A DNA stretch of 64,000 bases. Source: Acidobacteriota bacterium. Its GTDB lineage: Bacteria; Acidobacteriota; Terriglobia; Acidiferrales; UBA7541. Numbering within the stretch: the stretch's first letter is position 1; every line of letters begins with the position of its first letter. The translations under genes were made by a program, and so were the position numbers. Positions 6,392 through 11,770 of this stretch are shown here, one piece after another. Under the pieces are notes generated by a model. It was given only the letters and a program-made list of their open reading frames with translations. It had not been told where the DNA came from and made no database searches. The stretch covers positions 1 to 64,000 of the forward strand of contig JAJYLB010000013.1 of assembly GCA_021788095.1 (NCBI GenBank), read 5' to 3'.

Positions 6392-6613
6392 ATGCCTATC
6401 TACGAATACGTTTGCGAGGAATGCAAGACGCGCTACGAGCGGCTCGTGCTCGGACAGAACGGCGACGCCTCTTGCCCGAAATGCGGCAGCCGCAAGGGCT
6501 CGCTGCAATTCTCCGTTTTCGCCGCGCCGCACGGGGAAGACTCGTCGGCGGATTCCTCGGCCGGGGCTGCACCCTCCTGCGGCTGCAACTCCTTCGGCTG
6601 CGGCTGCCACTAG
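6392..6613 (+). CDS. FmdB-type zinc ribbon protein
   Basis: A 73-residue protein starting MPIYEYVCEEC, the signature of the FmdB/CxxC_CxxC_SSSS regulatory zinc ribbon family. Four cysteines form the ribbon: C8, C11, C28 and C31. A low-complexity Ser/Ala stretch follows, and then a Cys/Gly-rich tail (CGCNSFGCGCH) that may add a second metal site. FmdB was first noted as a putative regulator of formamidase genes, but most relatives are uncharacterised. A purine-rich stretch (GAAGAGG) lies about 10 bases before the ATG. No enzyme is co-transcribed with it here. Confidence 0.85.
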   Translation: MPIYEYVCEECKTRYERLVLGQNGDASCPKCGSRKGSLQFSVFAAPHGEDSSADSSAGAAPSCGCNSFGCGCH

Positions 6614-6732: not shown

Positions 6733-6770
6733 CTATAAAGAAAACGCCCCGGCTTGGGGCCGGGGCGTTT
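6733..6770 (-). terminator. rho-independent terminator of the radical SAM gene
   Basis: A perfect 12-bp stem (6742–6753 with 6759–6770, core ACGCCCCGGC) and a 5-base loop lie 25 bases past the radical SAM stop codon. On the minus strand the stem is followed by a T-rich run (TTTTCTTTA). This is the clearest intrinsic terminator in the window. Confidence 0.85.
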
Positions 6771-6794: not shown

Positions 6795-8939
6795 TTAGCG
6801 GGCGCCGACGGGCGTTTCGTTGGCGGCATCGGCGTGCTGGCCGTTGCCGTTGCCATTCGCGTGGCCGTTCCCGTTTTCCGGCGCCGCCGGAGCGATTCCC
6901 GCGCCGATCGTGACGAGCTGCTCGGCGGGCTTCTTCAGCACCATCTCCTCGTAGATCTGCCGCACCTTGGCCGCCTCTTCCATCGCCTGGCGGCGCCGCG
7001 CGCGGTCTTCGTCGGCCGCGTAGAGCGGGATCTCCTCGGAGTACTTCGGCCGGACGCGAGCCGCATCGGCGGGATCGACATGGAGCGAATGCTCGTAGCG
7101 ATCGAGGTTCACCGACTTGCCCTTGGCGTAGATCTCGTGCTTGCCGTGCGTCTTGTACCACTCGGCGACGGTCGCGTTCTTGTACATGTTTTCGATGATC
7201 TTGCGCCAGCCGATGCCCGTGTTATAGGCGCAGAAGGAGATCTCGCCGAGCTGCGTGGCGTAGGGGATGATGCACATTTCGGTCCGCCGGAAATCGTAGT
7301 TGAACAGATCCTGGAACCACATACCGGCGACGAACAGGAAGTTCCACGGGTCGGACTGGCGGCGCTTCATCGCGTCTTGGTAGGTGCGATTCGGGTTGGT
7401 TCGGCCGTACTTTTTGTCCGAGTCCTTCGATACGGACCACGTCTTGTCGAACTTCATCCAGATGTCGCGCAGGCTCAGGCTGGGCGGGGCCTGGAACGGC
7501 CGGTAGTGCTTGAGGAGGGCGAGCACCATCATGGCGGACGAGAATTTCTTTCCGCGCGCGGCGTCGGTGATCTTCTTCATATCCTCGATGAGCCCGGGGA
7601 CATTGAGGAACTTGGGCACCGGCGCCCATTCCTTCGTCGTCTTGTTGATCATGACGGCCGTGCCCACGCCGCAATTGGGGTGGCAGCCGCAGCTCAGGTG
7701 GCCCCACTGCGCCTCGGGCCCGGCCACCATGTCGGCGAAATCGGCGAACGGGCTGATGAGGGAGATGGGGAACCAGTCGCGGGTCGGCTCGATCTGGCCC
7801 ACCTGCTTGCTCACGTCGATCGCCATGTGGGAGAGCGTGTAGCGCTGGTGCATGCGCCGCTCGGGCGTGATGTCCTCGTCGCGGCCGGTGAAGCTGACCG
7901 GCTGGAAGCTGACGAAGGCGATCTTGTCGGGATTCTCCATCGCGAACTTCACGATGGGGCCGACCTGGTCGTTGTTCACGTTGTTGACGATGGTGGTGAC
8001 CAGCACGATTTCGATGCCGGCCTCGTGGAGGTTCTCGATGGCGCGGAGCTTGACGTCGAAGAGGTTGCCCACGTGGCGATGGCTATTGGCGTCGTTGCCG
8101 ATGCCGTCGAACTGGAGGTAGACGTAGCGGAGCCCGGCCTCGAACGCCTGCCTCGAATACTCCTTGCTCTTGGCGAATTCGATGCCGTTGGTCGCCGCCT
8201 GAACCGAGTTGTAACCCACCTTGCGCGCGTAGCGGACCGCATCGAGGAAGCGCGGGTGCATCGTCGGCTCGCCGCCGGAGAACTGCACCGACATCTGCCG
8301 CCGCGGCTTCACCTGGATGGCGTTGTCGAGGAGCTCCTGGATCTCTTCCCAGCTCAACTCGTGCACGTAGCCCACTTGGTTCGCGTCCATGAAGCAGGGA
8401 TCGCACATCATGTTGCAGCGGTTCGTGAGGTCGACGGTGAGGACCGAGCCGCGGCCGTAGCGCACCGTGCTCGAGCCGTGGTGGTGCACGCTCTCGTCGT
8501 TATGCGCGGGAATGTCGCGGCCGGGGAAATTCGCTTCGATCCAGGTCAGGAAACGGGAATCCTTGGCCATCAGGTCTTCGTACCGGCCGTGGATGGGGCA
8601 CTCCTTCACCATCCACACTTGGCCATCGCGCTCGATGATCTGCGCCTTGATCTCTCCCACCTTCTCGTGAACGAGGTCCTGCCAGTCCTTTCCCCCGTTC
8701 AGAATCGCGGAACGCGCCTCCTTCACGCAATCGGGGCACAGCGAGTCGGTCGAGCGGGGCCAGCCGAGCGTCGGCTTGGATTTCTCCCAGGATTTCAGCA
8801 TCGGCCGGTCGGACCATTTCGGCGTGAACGAGGGATTCGGGCTGCGCTTGTTGAAGTACTGGATGGCATCGAAGGCCACGCCGGCAGTCCGGCAAAGGGC
8901 CGCATCGAAGCACTTCAACAGTCGTTGATTGACAGCCAT
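6795..8939 (-). CDS. radical SAM enzyme of the COG1964/tetraether-lipid-synthase (Tes/Mss) type
   Basis: A 714-residue cytosolic or membrane-associated enzyme. The start is the ATG preceded by AGGGGG, rather than an in-frame codon 17 positions upstream. Order of parts: a Cys/His site (C68-P-D-C71 and C114-P-I-H117) resembling the rubredoxin-like knot of MJ0619-type proteins; the radical SAM core with C175-x3-C179-x2-C182, followed by FMDANQVGYVHE; the SAM-binding GGEP at 222–225; then C417-G-C419-H-P-N-C423 and the isolated C556 and C570, probable ligands of auxiliary Fe–S clusters; and finally an Asn/Gly-rich tail after about 688. Archaeal Tes joins lipid tails to make membrane-spanning tetraethers, and bacterial Mss relatives are linked to membrane-spanning diabolic-type acids. 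The family call is strong; the lipid function is inference. It is monocistronic, with its own terminator. Confidence 0.8.
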   Translation of the reverse strand: MAVNQRLLKCFDAALCRTAGVAFDAIQYFNKRSPNPSFTPKWSDRPMLKSWEKSKPTLGWPRSTDSLCPDCVKEARSAILNGGKDWQDLVHEKVGEIKAQIIERDGQVWMVKECPIHGRYEDLMAKDSRFLTWIEANFPGRDIPAHNDESVHHHGSSTVRYGRGSVLTVDLTNRCNMMCDPCFMDANQVGYVHELSWEEIQELLDNAIQVKPRRQMSVQFSGGEPTMHPRFLDAVRYARKVGYNSVQAATNGIEFAKSKEYSRQAFEAGLRYVYLQFDGIGNDANSHRHVGNLFDVKLRAIENLHEAGIEIVLVTTIVNNVNNDQVGPIVKFAMENPDKIAFVSFQPVSFTGRDEDITPERRMHQRYTLSHMAIDVSKQVGQIEPTRDWFPISLISPFADFADMVAGPEAQWGHLSCGCHPNCGVGTAVMINKTTKEWAPVPKFLNVPGLIEDMKKITDAARGKKFSSAMMVLALLKHYRPFQAPPSLSLRDIWMKFDKTWSVSKDSDKKYGRTNPNRTYQDAMKRRQSDPWNFLFVAGMWFQDLFNYDFRRTEMCIIPYATQLGEISFCAYNTGIGWRKIIENMYKNATVAEWYKTHGKHEIYAKGKSVNLDRYEHSLHVDPADAARVRPKYSEEIPLYAADEDRARRRQAMEEAAKVRQIYEEMVLKKPAEQLVTIGAGIAPAAPENGNGHANGNGNGQHADAANETPVGAR

Positions 8940-9005
8940 GCACCACCCCCTATTGGGTTTTCTAAGATTGCGCCTGGGGCCTTCGATCATTGCCCGCTTG
9001 CTCCC

Positions 9006-9234: not shown

Positions 9235-10374
9235 TCAATCGGTTTCGTCCATCAATTCCGGGCGAAGCAGCGCCGCGGCGAAGTGGCCCAAGGCCACGGC
9301 GTCGCTCTCTTCATGCTCGATCCAGCGCACGGCGCAATGCTGCCGCATGTAGCGGCTGGCTTGGGAATCGCTGATCCCCAGATAGCTCGCCAGGCGCGCC
9401 CGCACCGAGCCCTGCCGCCCGCGCCGGCCGGAAACGAACTGATCCATTCCCGAGCGCATATTTCTGCACGCTTCCAAGTAGTACATCGTCGTGAGATCCG
9501 AATCGGACACGAGGTAGACGCCCGGACTCGCGGGCACTTCGTGCAACTCTTCGAGGGGATAGGGGTGGGAGGCGAGCAGTTGCCGCAGCTTGCCTTCGAG
9601 CGCCTTGATCTCAGAAGCCAGCGCCGGCTCTCCACGGCGGTAGATATGAATGGCGGGCAGGGTCTCTCGCTGGCCGTGGCGCGCGGCTGCCGGGCGCGGC
9701 TCATCTTCATGCGCTCGCGCCGCAGGCGCTGGAGCTGCCGGGCGCGCCGCAGGCGCTGGAGCTGCCGGTCGTGCCGCGGCGTGTGGGGGCGGCTCGGCAG
9801 GTGGGGCGCTTCGAGGCCGCGCTGCCTCTTCCGTTCCTTCCTTGCGGCCAGGACTCCGGCGTCTGCCGCGGCCGCCGCGGCGCCGGCGGCGGCGCCCGGA
9901 AGGCGCCTCCGCGGGAGCGGGAGTTTCAGCGGCCGCCGCGGAGACCGCCTCGACGGCGGGAACGCTCCTTGCTTCTTGCGGCTCGTCCGGCTCGGTTTCC
10001 GGAATTGCTTCTGGCTCGGCATCCGGTTCCGACTGCCACGGAGCCGGCTCGGCAGGGCCAGCCTCGGCAGAAGCCTCTTGAGCCGCATGCCGGCCCGGTC
10101 GCTCTTCCGGCACGGGCGCGGGGAGCGGAGCGCCATGTCGCCCGAGCGCTTCCTCCGCCTTCTGCTTCCATTCCGAGCGGCGGAAACGTTCCCAGGCGCG
10201 CCGATACCAATCGACGGCGCGCTCGATCCGCCCGGCGGCCTCCTCGAGCTGGGCTAGCTCAAAGGCGACCATGCCATCGCGCGTCTTATCGAAAAGCTGT
10301 TCGAGCCGCGAAGTCGCGTCGGAGCCGGCTTTCGCCCGGCGGATCCGCGCCCGAATTTGTCTCCAGTCTGCCAT
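9235..10374 (-). CDS. hypothetical protein with degenerate GIY-YIG-like C-terminus
   Basis: A 379-residue protein in three parts. Residues 1–80 form charged helices reminiscent of a TPR pair (ELAQLEEAAGRIERAVDWYRRAW). About 85–255 is low-complexity Pro/Ala/Arg/Glu sequence with the tandem unit RPAAPAPAA. From about 275 comes a compact domain with SPGVYLV, then YYLEACRNMRSGM, and near the end ALGHFAAALLRPELMD. The spacing resembles a GIY-YIG nuclease, with GVY and YYLE replacing GIY and YIG. The usual catalytic Glu appears to be Gly and the terminal Asn is missing, so it is probably not an active nuclease. Its role is unknown and it lies divergent from queG. Confidence 0.6.
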   Translation of the reverse strand: MADWRQIRARIRRAKAGSDATSRLEQLFDKTRDGMVAFELAQLEEAAGRIERAVDWYRRAWERFRRSEWKQKAEEALGRHGAPLPAPVPEERPGRHAAQEASAEAGPAEPAPWQSEPDAEPEAIPETEPDEPQEARSVPAVEAVSAAAAETPAPAEAPSGRRRRRRGGRGRRRSPGRKEGTEEAARPRSAPPAEPPPHAAARPAAPAPAARPAAPAPAARAHEDEPRPAAARHGQRETLPAIHIYRRGEPALASEIKALEGKLRQLLASHPYPLEELHEVPASPGVYLVSDSDLTTMYYLEACRNMRSGMDQFVSGRRGRQGSVRARLASYLGISDSQASRYMRQHCAVRWIEHEESDAVALGHFAAALLRPELMDETD

Positions 10375-10460
10375 GAGCGGATTCTAACCTAAGCGGGCGC
10401 TTTCTTCCTATGATTCCGAGGCTTGGAGCCAAGGAGGGGGCGGCTTGGTGGGGGATGGGG

Positions 10461-10529
10461 CAGGTGGCAGGTGGCAGGTGGCAGCTAAGAGAAGCGCGCG
10501 GGCAGGTCCCGAATCCCGAAGGTTCGGGA
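10461..10529. repeat. 7-bp tandem repeat and adjacent palindrome
   Basis: Three exact copies of CAGGTGG at 10461–10481 are followed by a palindrome at 10514–10529 (TCCCGAA, GG, TTCGGGA). The palindrome resembles the one at 293–308. Both lie in the gap just upstream of queG. Confidence 0.55.
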
Positions 10530-10552
10530 GCCCACGCCACGCGCGGCGTAGA

Positions 10553-11770
10553 ATGGCTTCGATGGCTCCGGTGGGCGAGCGGGAACGCACGGAATGGATT
10601 ACGGCCAAGGCTCGTGAAGCGGGGATCGACCTGTGCGGCGTAGCGCCGGCGAGCCGCTTCCCCGAACTCGACCGCATGACGGAATGGCTCGAGCGCGGCC
10701 ACGCGGGCGAGATGCGCTACCTGCACGACCCGCGGCGGCGCTCGCTCGACCGCGCCCTGGAAGGCGCCAAGAGCGTGATCGTCTGCGGCGCCAGTTACCG
10801 CACCGGTGAGCCGCTCTCCACTCAGATCCTTTCCGAAGGCGATCGGGAACGGCCGCGCGGCTGGATCTCCCGCTACGGCTGGGGCGACGACTACCACGAC
10901 GTGCTCTTGCCGCGTTTGCGGCTGCTGCTCGATGCCATGCGGGCGGAGCTTGGGGACCTCGACTCGCGGGCCTACGTGGACACCGGGCCCATCGTCGAGA
11001 GGGTCGCCGCCAAATATGCGGGGTTGGGCTGGCTCGCGAAGAACACCTGCCTGATCAACCAGAAATGGGGTTCGTTTCTCTTCCTCGGCGTCATCGTCAC
11101 CACACTCGCCTTCGAGCCAACGCTCGGACCCGACGCCGCTCCCCCGCCCGATCTCTGCGGCTCCTGCCGCCGGTGCATCGACGCCTGCCCCACCGGAGCG
11201 TTCGTCGAGCCGTACGTCATGGATGCGCGGCGCTGCATCGCCTATTTCACGATCGAGTTGCGCGGGCCGATACCCGAGGAGTTCCGTCCGGCGATGGGGA
11301 AGATGGTCTTCGGCTGCGACATCTGCCAAGACGTTTGCCCGTGGAACCAGAAAGCCGCGCGAGCCGGCTCGGCAACGCTCGGCCGGATTCCCGAATTCCT
11401 GCCCCGCGTCGTTCCCCCGCCCGCCGATCCCCGGGGCCCGGCGCCGGCAGGGGCGACGACCGCTCGGGCCACCGCCTCCGCCCACGGGCCGTCCGGCGCG
11501 CATTCGTTTTTCGCGCCCGAACTCGAGTGGCTGGCGTCGCTCGACGAAGGGGAGTACCGGCGCGTCTTCCGTGGCAGCCCGGTGAAGCGCGCCAAGTATC
11601 GCGGCCTCGTTCGCAACGCGTGCGTCGCGTTGGGCAACGCCGGCGGCGAGCTGGGGCCCGAGGCGCGCGCGCGGATCGAAAAGCTACTCGAACGCCTCGC
11701 CGCCTCTCCCGACGATCTGATTGCCGGGCACGCGCGCTGGGCGCTCGCTCGGCTTCAGGCGGTAAGCTAG
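10553..11770 (+). CDS. queG: epoxyqueuosine reductase QueG
   Basis: A cobalamin-dependent iron–sulfur enzyme that reduces epoxyqueuosine to queuosine in tRNA, the last step of Q synthesis. It has 405 residues from the first ATG. The conserved YVDTGPIVER segment holds the proposed catalytic Asp. Two 4Fe-4S motifs follow (CGSCRRCIDACP and CDICQDVCPWN), and the C-terminal HEAT-like part binds tRNA in known structures. There is no Shine-Dalgarno sequence. A TAGAAT hexamer at 10549–10554 overlaps this ATG and lies 7 bases before a second in-frame ATG at 10562, so a leaderless start at 10562 is quite possible. tgt, which inserts the Q precursor, is at 58481. Confidence 0.93.
   Translation: MASMAPVGERERTEWITAKAREAGIDLCGVAPASRFPELDRMTEWLERGHAGEMRYLHDPRRRSLDRALEGAKSVIVCGASYRTGEPLSTQILSEGDRERPRGWISRYGWGDDYHDVLLPRLRLLLDAMRAELGDLDSRAYVDTGPIVERVAAKYAGLGWLAKNTCLINQKWGSFLFLGVIVTTLAFEPTLGPDAAPPPDLCGSCRRCIDACPTGAFVEPYVMDARRCIAYFTIELRGPIPEEFRPAMGKMVFGCDICQDVCPWNQKAARAGSATLGRIPEFLPRVVPPPADPRGPAPAGATTARATASAHGPSGAHSFFAPELEWLASLDEGEYRRVFRGSPVKRAKYRGLVRNACVALGNAGGELGPEARARIEKLLERLAASPDDLIAGHARWALARLQAVS

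Follow-up and report, generated by a model that had tools for sequence, protein, structure and literature searches.

Iso-diabolic acid and brGDGTs underlie widely used soil palaeothermometers, and it therefore matters which enzymes make them in the Acidobacteriota. Acidobacterial homologs of the tetraether synthase Tes have already been proposed to make membrane-spanning lipids (PMC8941075, PMC10087280). A radical SAM protein of this family, here called TesA, is encoded in the window, that is, the whole 64,000-nucleotide stretch of DNA analysed in this work, and an earlier note on this DNA had taken it for a relative of the enzymes that couple lipid tails. The locus thus raises the question whether TesA is such a coupling enzyme and, if so, which lipid it would make in its host. 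This host is a soil acidobacterium of gp2 (subdivision 2) / 'Candidatus Acidiferrales' and, judging by named isolates of that class among its relatives, probably a member of the class Terriglobia. The contig that holds the window also carries a 16S rRNA gene of the MAG (G000:C60:78382-79928), and binning is thus not the sole possible basis for assigning the window.

The tesA gene and its family

The open reading frame is intact, and the coordinates and motifs were found as the earlier note gave them for 6795-8939(-). Homologs share the start at 8939.

6795..8939, minus strand: tesA, encoding a Tes-family radical SAM protein of 714 aa (open reading frame and model matches)
about 8945..8951, minus strand: Shine-Dalgarno-like AGGGGG before the ATG at 8939 (read from the sequence)

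Pfam detects two domains, radical SAM and, at the N-terminus, a zinc ribbon that is named after the old pterin-methylase annotation of MJ0619. Of the NCBIfam models, the one for tetraether synthase (Tes) scores highest by far, at 330 bits (E = 2e-98), and the runner-up is TrsS (223.8 bits); families other than these two reach at most 84 bits. TesA stays under the Tes equivalog cut-off of 450 bits (NF045702), with 330 bits as a protein and 327.6 bits in the genome search, which we ascribe to its membership of a separate bacterial branch. It is not TrsS by the 490-bit cut-off of NF045646 either, the TrsS match being the weaker of the two. Among solved structures, the sole full-length match is the tetraether synthase of M. 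jannaschii (MJ0619/GDGT-MAS; 7TOL/7TOM), with E = 4.9e-62 over residues 96-598 for 7TOL and E = 5.1e-80 in a profile search. As far as sequence goes, the similarity to Tes is far beyond chance.

The window's genome (4.24 Mb, 93.5% complete) holds a single tesA copy, and no second Tes-type protein was found in it. A search of viral contigs for further TesA relatives gave none. AlphaFold2, run on TesA with an alignment of only two sequences, yielded a mean pLDDT of 36.5. Separately, TrsS-like radical SAM proteins occur in Occallatibacter and a gp2 relative (L235:4357-5853(-) and L237:4594-6066(+)), for which TrsS is the best model, below its cut-off.

Metal sites and conserved residues

In MJ0619, a rubredoxin-type Fe is bound by C9, C12, C33 and H36, an N-terminal [4Fe-4S] by C73, C77, C80 and a His, and the enzyme further contains a radical SAM cluster and, C-terminally, another [4Fe-4S], which has Met439 as a labile ligand (PMC9433317). 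These sites were placed on about 95 homologs, 85 of which are TesA or TesB (TesA/B).

8589..8738, minus strand: rubredoxin-like site C68-x2-C71 ... C114-x2-H117, equivalent to MJ0619 C9/C12/C33/H36 (alignment; PMC9433317)
8454..8492, minus strand: position of the lost N-terminal [4Fe-4S] ligands (MJ0619 C73/C77/C80), here SVHHHGSSTVRYG (alignment)
8394..8417, minus strand: radical SAM CX3CX2C, C175/C179/C182 (motif and alignment)
7671..7691, minus strand: C417-G-C419-H-P-N-C423, in which C423 corresponds to MJ0619 Cys338 and C417 and C419 are added (alignment)
7320..7322, minus strand: M540, equivalent of the labile ligand Met439 (alignment; PMC9433317)
7272..7274, minus strand: C556 (MJ0619 C455), putative C-terminal-cluster cysteine (ligand role by conservation)
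7230..7232, minus strand: C570 (MJ0619 C470), putative C-terminal-cluster cysteine (ligand role by conservation)
6798..7142, minus strand: C-terminal extension absent from MJ0619, a charged helix region (...YEEMVLKK) followed by an Asn/Gly-rich tail (alignment)
6798-6887, minus strand: the variable Asn/Gly-rich tail within this extension (sequence)

The individual motifs that had been noticed earlier are all there: the N-terminal Cys/His knot is C68xxC71...C114xxH117 and corresponds in the alignment to the MJ0619 rubredoxin site, the radical SAM core C175/C179/C182 is followed by FMDANQVGYVHE, and the CxCHPNC site is accompanied by the further cysteines C556 and C570. The radical SAM cluster, the rubredoxin-type site, C423/C556/C570 and M540 are kept in 85/85 TesA/B, and C68, C71, C114 and H117 are present in every homolog covering the region. 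The SAM-pocket residues F183, G222, Y274, D278, Q346, S349, T351 and R353 are likewise invariant in TesA/B. C423, C556 and C570, the counterparts of MJ0619 C338, C455 and C470, are the probable ligands of the C-terminal cluster.

The proposed likeness to the MJ0619 layout thus holds for three of its four metal sites, but the cysteines of the N-terminal auxiliary cluster are lost and a CxC pair is gained. The equivalents of C73, C77 and C80 are all three absent from each of the 85 TesA/B examined. Both added cysteines, C417 and C419, are invariant (85/85), and C417 is unique to TesA/B within the set of about 95 homologs. These lost and gained cysteines are, on the alignments, the clearest difference between TesA and known Tes enzymes. 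The chemistry may differ as well, because the N-terminal [4Fe-4S] is missing and the ligand set by the catalytic cluster is altered.

Rarer gp2 paralogs of TesA, L228:2140-4002(+) and L229:3991-5883(+), are 41-42% identical to TesA and have lost C-terminal-cluster cysteines too (C338R, C455S) while retaining the radical SAM site; they either carry out a different reaction or are degenerate copies.

The earlier note had also singled out the Asn/Gly-rich tail, which is real and absent from MJ0619 but variable and mostly limited to the gp2 family. A role for it was dropped on account of its varying length and largely gp2-only occurrence. Gly-Asp nevertheless forms the last two residues of 36/85 TesA proteins, despite the variable tail before it. 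An N-terminal membrane-anchor helix was likewise rejected, as the hydrophobic moment is merely moderate (0.34-0.47) and not outstanding.

Two acidobacterial Tes lineages

In a maximum-likelihood tree of 62 proteins, with MJ0619 as the one archaeal sequence and no Mss, TesA, TesB and L228/L229 form one clade (support 100/100) that is separate from the canonical bacterial Tes, here TesC, and from MJ0619, whose branch is long and whose precise position is uncertain. TesC and TesA are 34-36% identical and align over 489 columns in a profile-profile comparison (probability 100, E = 9e-92). On the NCBIfam Tes model, TesC scores 586.8 bits, above the cut-off, versus 330 for TesA. Judged by these comparisons, TesC, and not TesA, is the closest bacterial counterpart of archaeal Tes.

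The TesC set comprises L219, L223, L226, L232-L234 and 39 Bryobacteraceae, the family to which Solibacter usitatus, as we take it from taxonomy, belongs. Among 121 Bryobacteraceae genomes, the 39 with tesC all encode a DUF2229 (Ger/PlsA) protein (39/39), versus 30/82 of those without tesC (p = 6e-13), whereas tesA, present in about 103/121, is not associated with DUF2229 (p = 0.20); these counts ignore relatedness and MAG incompleteness. The DUF2229 proteins examined consist of two BcrAD_BadFG-type activation stretches and DUF2229, the architecture described for validated glycerol ester reductases, Ger (PMC13274423). TesC, which tracks Ger/PlsA, is therefore the stronger candidate for true tetraethers, and TesA, which is independent of it, for ester-linked iso-diabolic acid. 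A match to the DUF2229 (Ger/PlsA-type) protein was found in 27/61 relatives and none in the window's genome, where a gene may have been missed given the 93.5% completeness. TesC was not detected in this genome either.

Genomic neighbourhood

6746..6760, minus strand: terminator-like GC hairpin with a T-run 3' of tesA (not above the background count)
6392..6613, plus strand: small FmdB/Zn_ribbon_8 protein, convergent to tesA (domain match)
9235..10374, minus strand: gene of no assigned family, upstream of tesA and co-directional with it (locus comparison)

The gene had been described as standing alone with its own terminator. The hairpin is present and no operon partners were found in the window, where the neighbours are DUF2461, the zinc ribbon, the unassigned gene and QueG. 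However, hairpins of this kind are at background level in the region (3 found versus 2.8 expected), and gp2 relatives have conserved neighbours: 14 gp2 loci have the FmdB-type zinc ribbon downstream of tesA, 13 of them in the same direction as tesA, and in 17 the 9235..10374 gene lies upstream. The epoxyqueuosine reductase gene queG, in the window at 10445-11770(+), recurs throughout the class as a divergent neighbour of tesA, with about 20 Bryobacterales/gp13 loci among the cases.

Other families show different arrangements. Family f3 has a radical SAM/SPASM gene immediately after tesA (L218, L220 and L221, with a fragment in L222), located at 6987-8633(-) in L218. Its product resembles Gms, the GMGT synthase, a name given by the described architecture of a helical N-terminus, radical SAM and SPASM (PMC11186832) and not by sequence comparison; it scores well under every curated haem-family cut-off. 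A Gms-like gene also lies beside tesC in f2 and f10 (L219, L223, L226), and tesA adjoins tesC in f2 and two Bryobacteraceae (L219, L267, L268). Eight of nine relatives with a Gms-like gene encode a DUF2229 protein (Fisher p = 0.008, kinship ignored). No Gms-like protein was found in the window's genome.

Distribution and iso-diabolic acid

A survey of 46 strains from seven subdivisions (SDs) reported iso-diabolic acid in SDs 1, 3, 4 and 6 only (PMC13274423), and Chloracidobacterium makes it as well (PMC12816986). Nearly all of the 61 relatives carry tesA, whole or as a fragment at a contig edge; G026, G027, G028 and G051 gave weak generic radical SAM matches or none. Among named acidobacteria, picked by a 16S-signature scan, tesA was found in every Terriglobia isolate tested (Edaphobacter, Granulicella, Terriglobus, Occallatibacter, Acidipila and others), in all SD1, SD3, gp2, gp13 and gp22 genomes tested, Bryobacterales included, and in one gp6 genome. 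It is also present in the two-chromosome genomes of family f42, probably of Chloracidobacterium type. The gene is absent from Geothrix fermentans, G. terrae, G. paludis, four other Holophagae and one Thermoanaerobaculia MAG. The subdivisions negative for iso-diabolic acid are reportedly SDs 8, 10 and 23, and for gp2 we know of no lipid data. At class level, this distribution is as the lipid surveys would predict, the exception being one Vicinamibacteria MAG that lacks tesA though SD6 is known for iso-diabolic acid. The phyletic pattern fits the iso-diabolic acid producers well, but it reflects few independent evolutionary gains or losses, and the lipid data are resolved to class level.

Proposed function

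We consider that TesA is probably a bacterial Tes-family radical SAM enzyme that couples carbon to carbon and makes ester-linked iso-diabolic acid in this organism. The lipid-coupling role proposed earlier gains from family membership by sequence, profile and ligands, from the phyletic fit and, in some relatives, from adjacent genes for other likely lipid-tail radical SAM enzymes, but its premise of a plain MJ0619 layout did not stand, and TesA is not the closest counterpart of archaeal Tes. If TesA works like its homolog GDGT-MAS, SAM would be cleaved at the radical SAM cluster (C175/179/182), and the 5'-deoxyadenosyl radical would abstract H from a phospholipid in the enzyme, at the terminal methyl of one of its iso-branched acyl tails. 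The resulting carbon radical could be parked on the C-terminal [4Fe-4S] (C423/C556/C570, with labile M540), at one of the sulfides, where a second tail, activated likewise, would attack the parked carbon to give a tail-to-tail Csp3-Csp3 bond. Two iso-C15:0 chains so joined would be iso-diabolic acid. The product is most likely ester-linked, as no Ger/PlsA-type ester reductase was found, and a tetraether is less likely in a genome with no detected Ger/PlsA-type, TesC or Gms-like protein.

TesA might instead modify tails in another way (an intra-lipid cross-link, ring closure or a mid-chain methyl linkage), with Mss or another enzyme making iso-diabolic acid. The altered metal-site set would suit this, the bacterial enzyme with experimental support is Mss, which has been reported in 11/97 Black Sea acidobacterial MAGs (PMC11868695), and, as the Gms-like neighbour shows, several radical SAM enzymes that modify lipid tails may be encoded together. 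We nevertheless think it unlikely, because TesA is near-universal wherever iso-diabolic acid is common and because TesA/B keep, without exception, the labile Met, the SAM-pocket residues and the catalytic cluster of a coupling enzyme. A role of TesA as the synthase of brGDGT tetraethers in Acidobacteriota, acting on diethers like archaeal Tes, appears quite improbable, although it is in line with what has been proposed for Solibacter usitatus, which produces brGDGTs in abundance and has two Tes homologs (PMC10087280), and although some genomes have tesA next to tesC or next to a Gms-like gene. Here the co-occurrence data weigh against it: tesC tracks the Ger/PlsA-type proteins and tesA is independent of them, many genomes, the window's included, have tesA without them, and few cultured acidobacteria are known for brGDGTs, yet tesA is near-universal.

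A non-lipid substrate, through pterin methylation or through a peptide or protein as for TrsS-like enzymes, could account for the name of the Pfam zinc ribbon and for TrsS as second-best model. We give it very little credence, since the crystal structure of MJ0619 shows a lipid tunnel with a bound phospholipid (PMC9433317) and the C-terminal-cluster cysteines kept in TesA are missing from TrsS-like proteins. A pterin-methylase identity in particular was rejected, the pterin annotation of MJ0619 having been judged wrong from that structure (PMC9433317).

We tentatively propose, at somewhat less than an even chance, that Acidobacteriota have two tail-coupling enzymes: a remodelled TesA, with the N-terminal cluster lost and five cysteines at the C-terminal one, making ester-linked iso-diabolic acid, and a canonical TesC that with Ger/PlsA makes brGDGT tetraethers. 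This names two separate candidates, with one predicted lipid for each, and adds uncultured gp2 acidobacteria to the organisms predicted to make iso-diabolic acid. The altered metal-site set and the TesA/TesC split appear to be new, being absent from the open-licence literature examined.

Comparison with known systems

Gms belongs to another family than TesA and has another reaction. Mss resembles TesA by description, in its proposed tail-to-tail coupling of acyl chains and not by sequences set side by side; its models are said to have the Tes catalytic architecture (PMC13274423), and unlike TesA it is reported mostly for anaerobes. TesC is a paralog in the same phylum, sometimes encoded adjacent to TesA, but it differs in retaining the metal sites of MJ0619, in scoring above the NCBIfam cut-off and in its co-occurrence with Ger/PlsA-type proteins. 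Archaeal Tes/GDGT-MAS (MJ0619; PDB 7TOL/7TOM) shares with TesA the rubredoxin-like site, the radical SAM cluster, the C-terminal-cluster cysteines, the labile Met and the SAM pocket. TesA differs from it by the loss of the N-terminal [4Fe-4S], the CxC added beside the Cys338 equivalent, extensions of about 60 aa (N-terminal) and 110 aa (C-terminal), and a presumably bacterial substrate. If TesA is active, this natural Tes variant would show that the N-terminal auxiliary cluster is dispensable.
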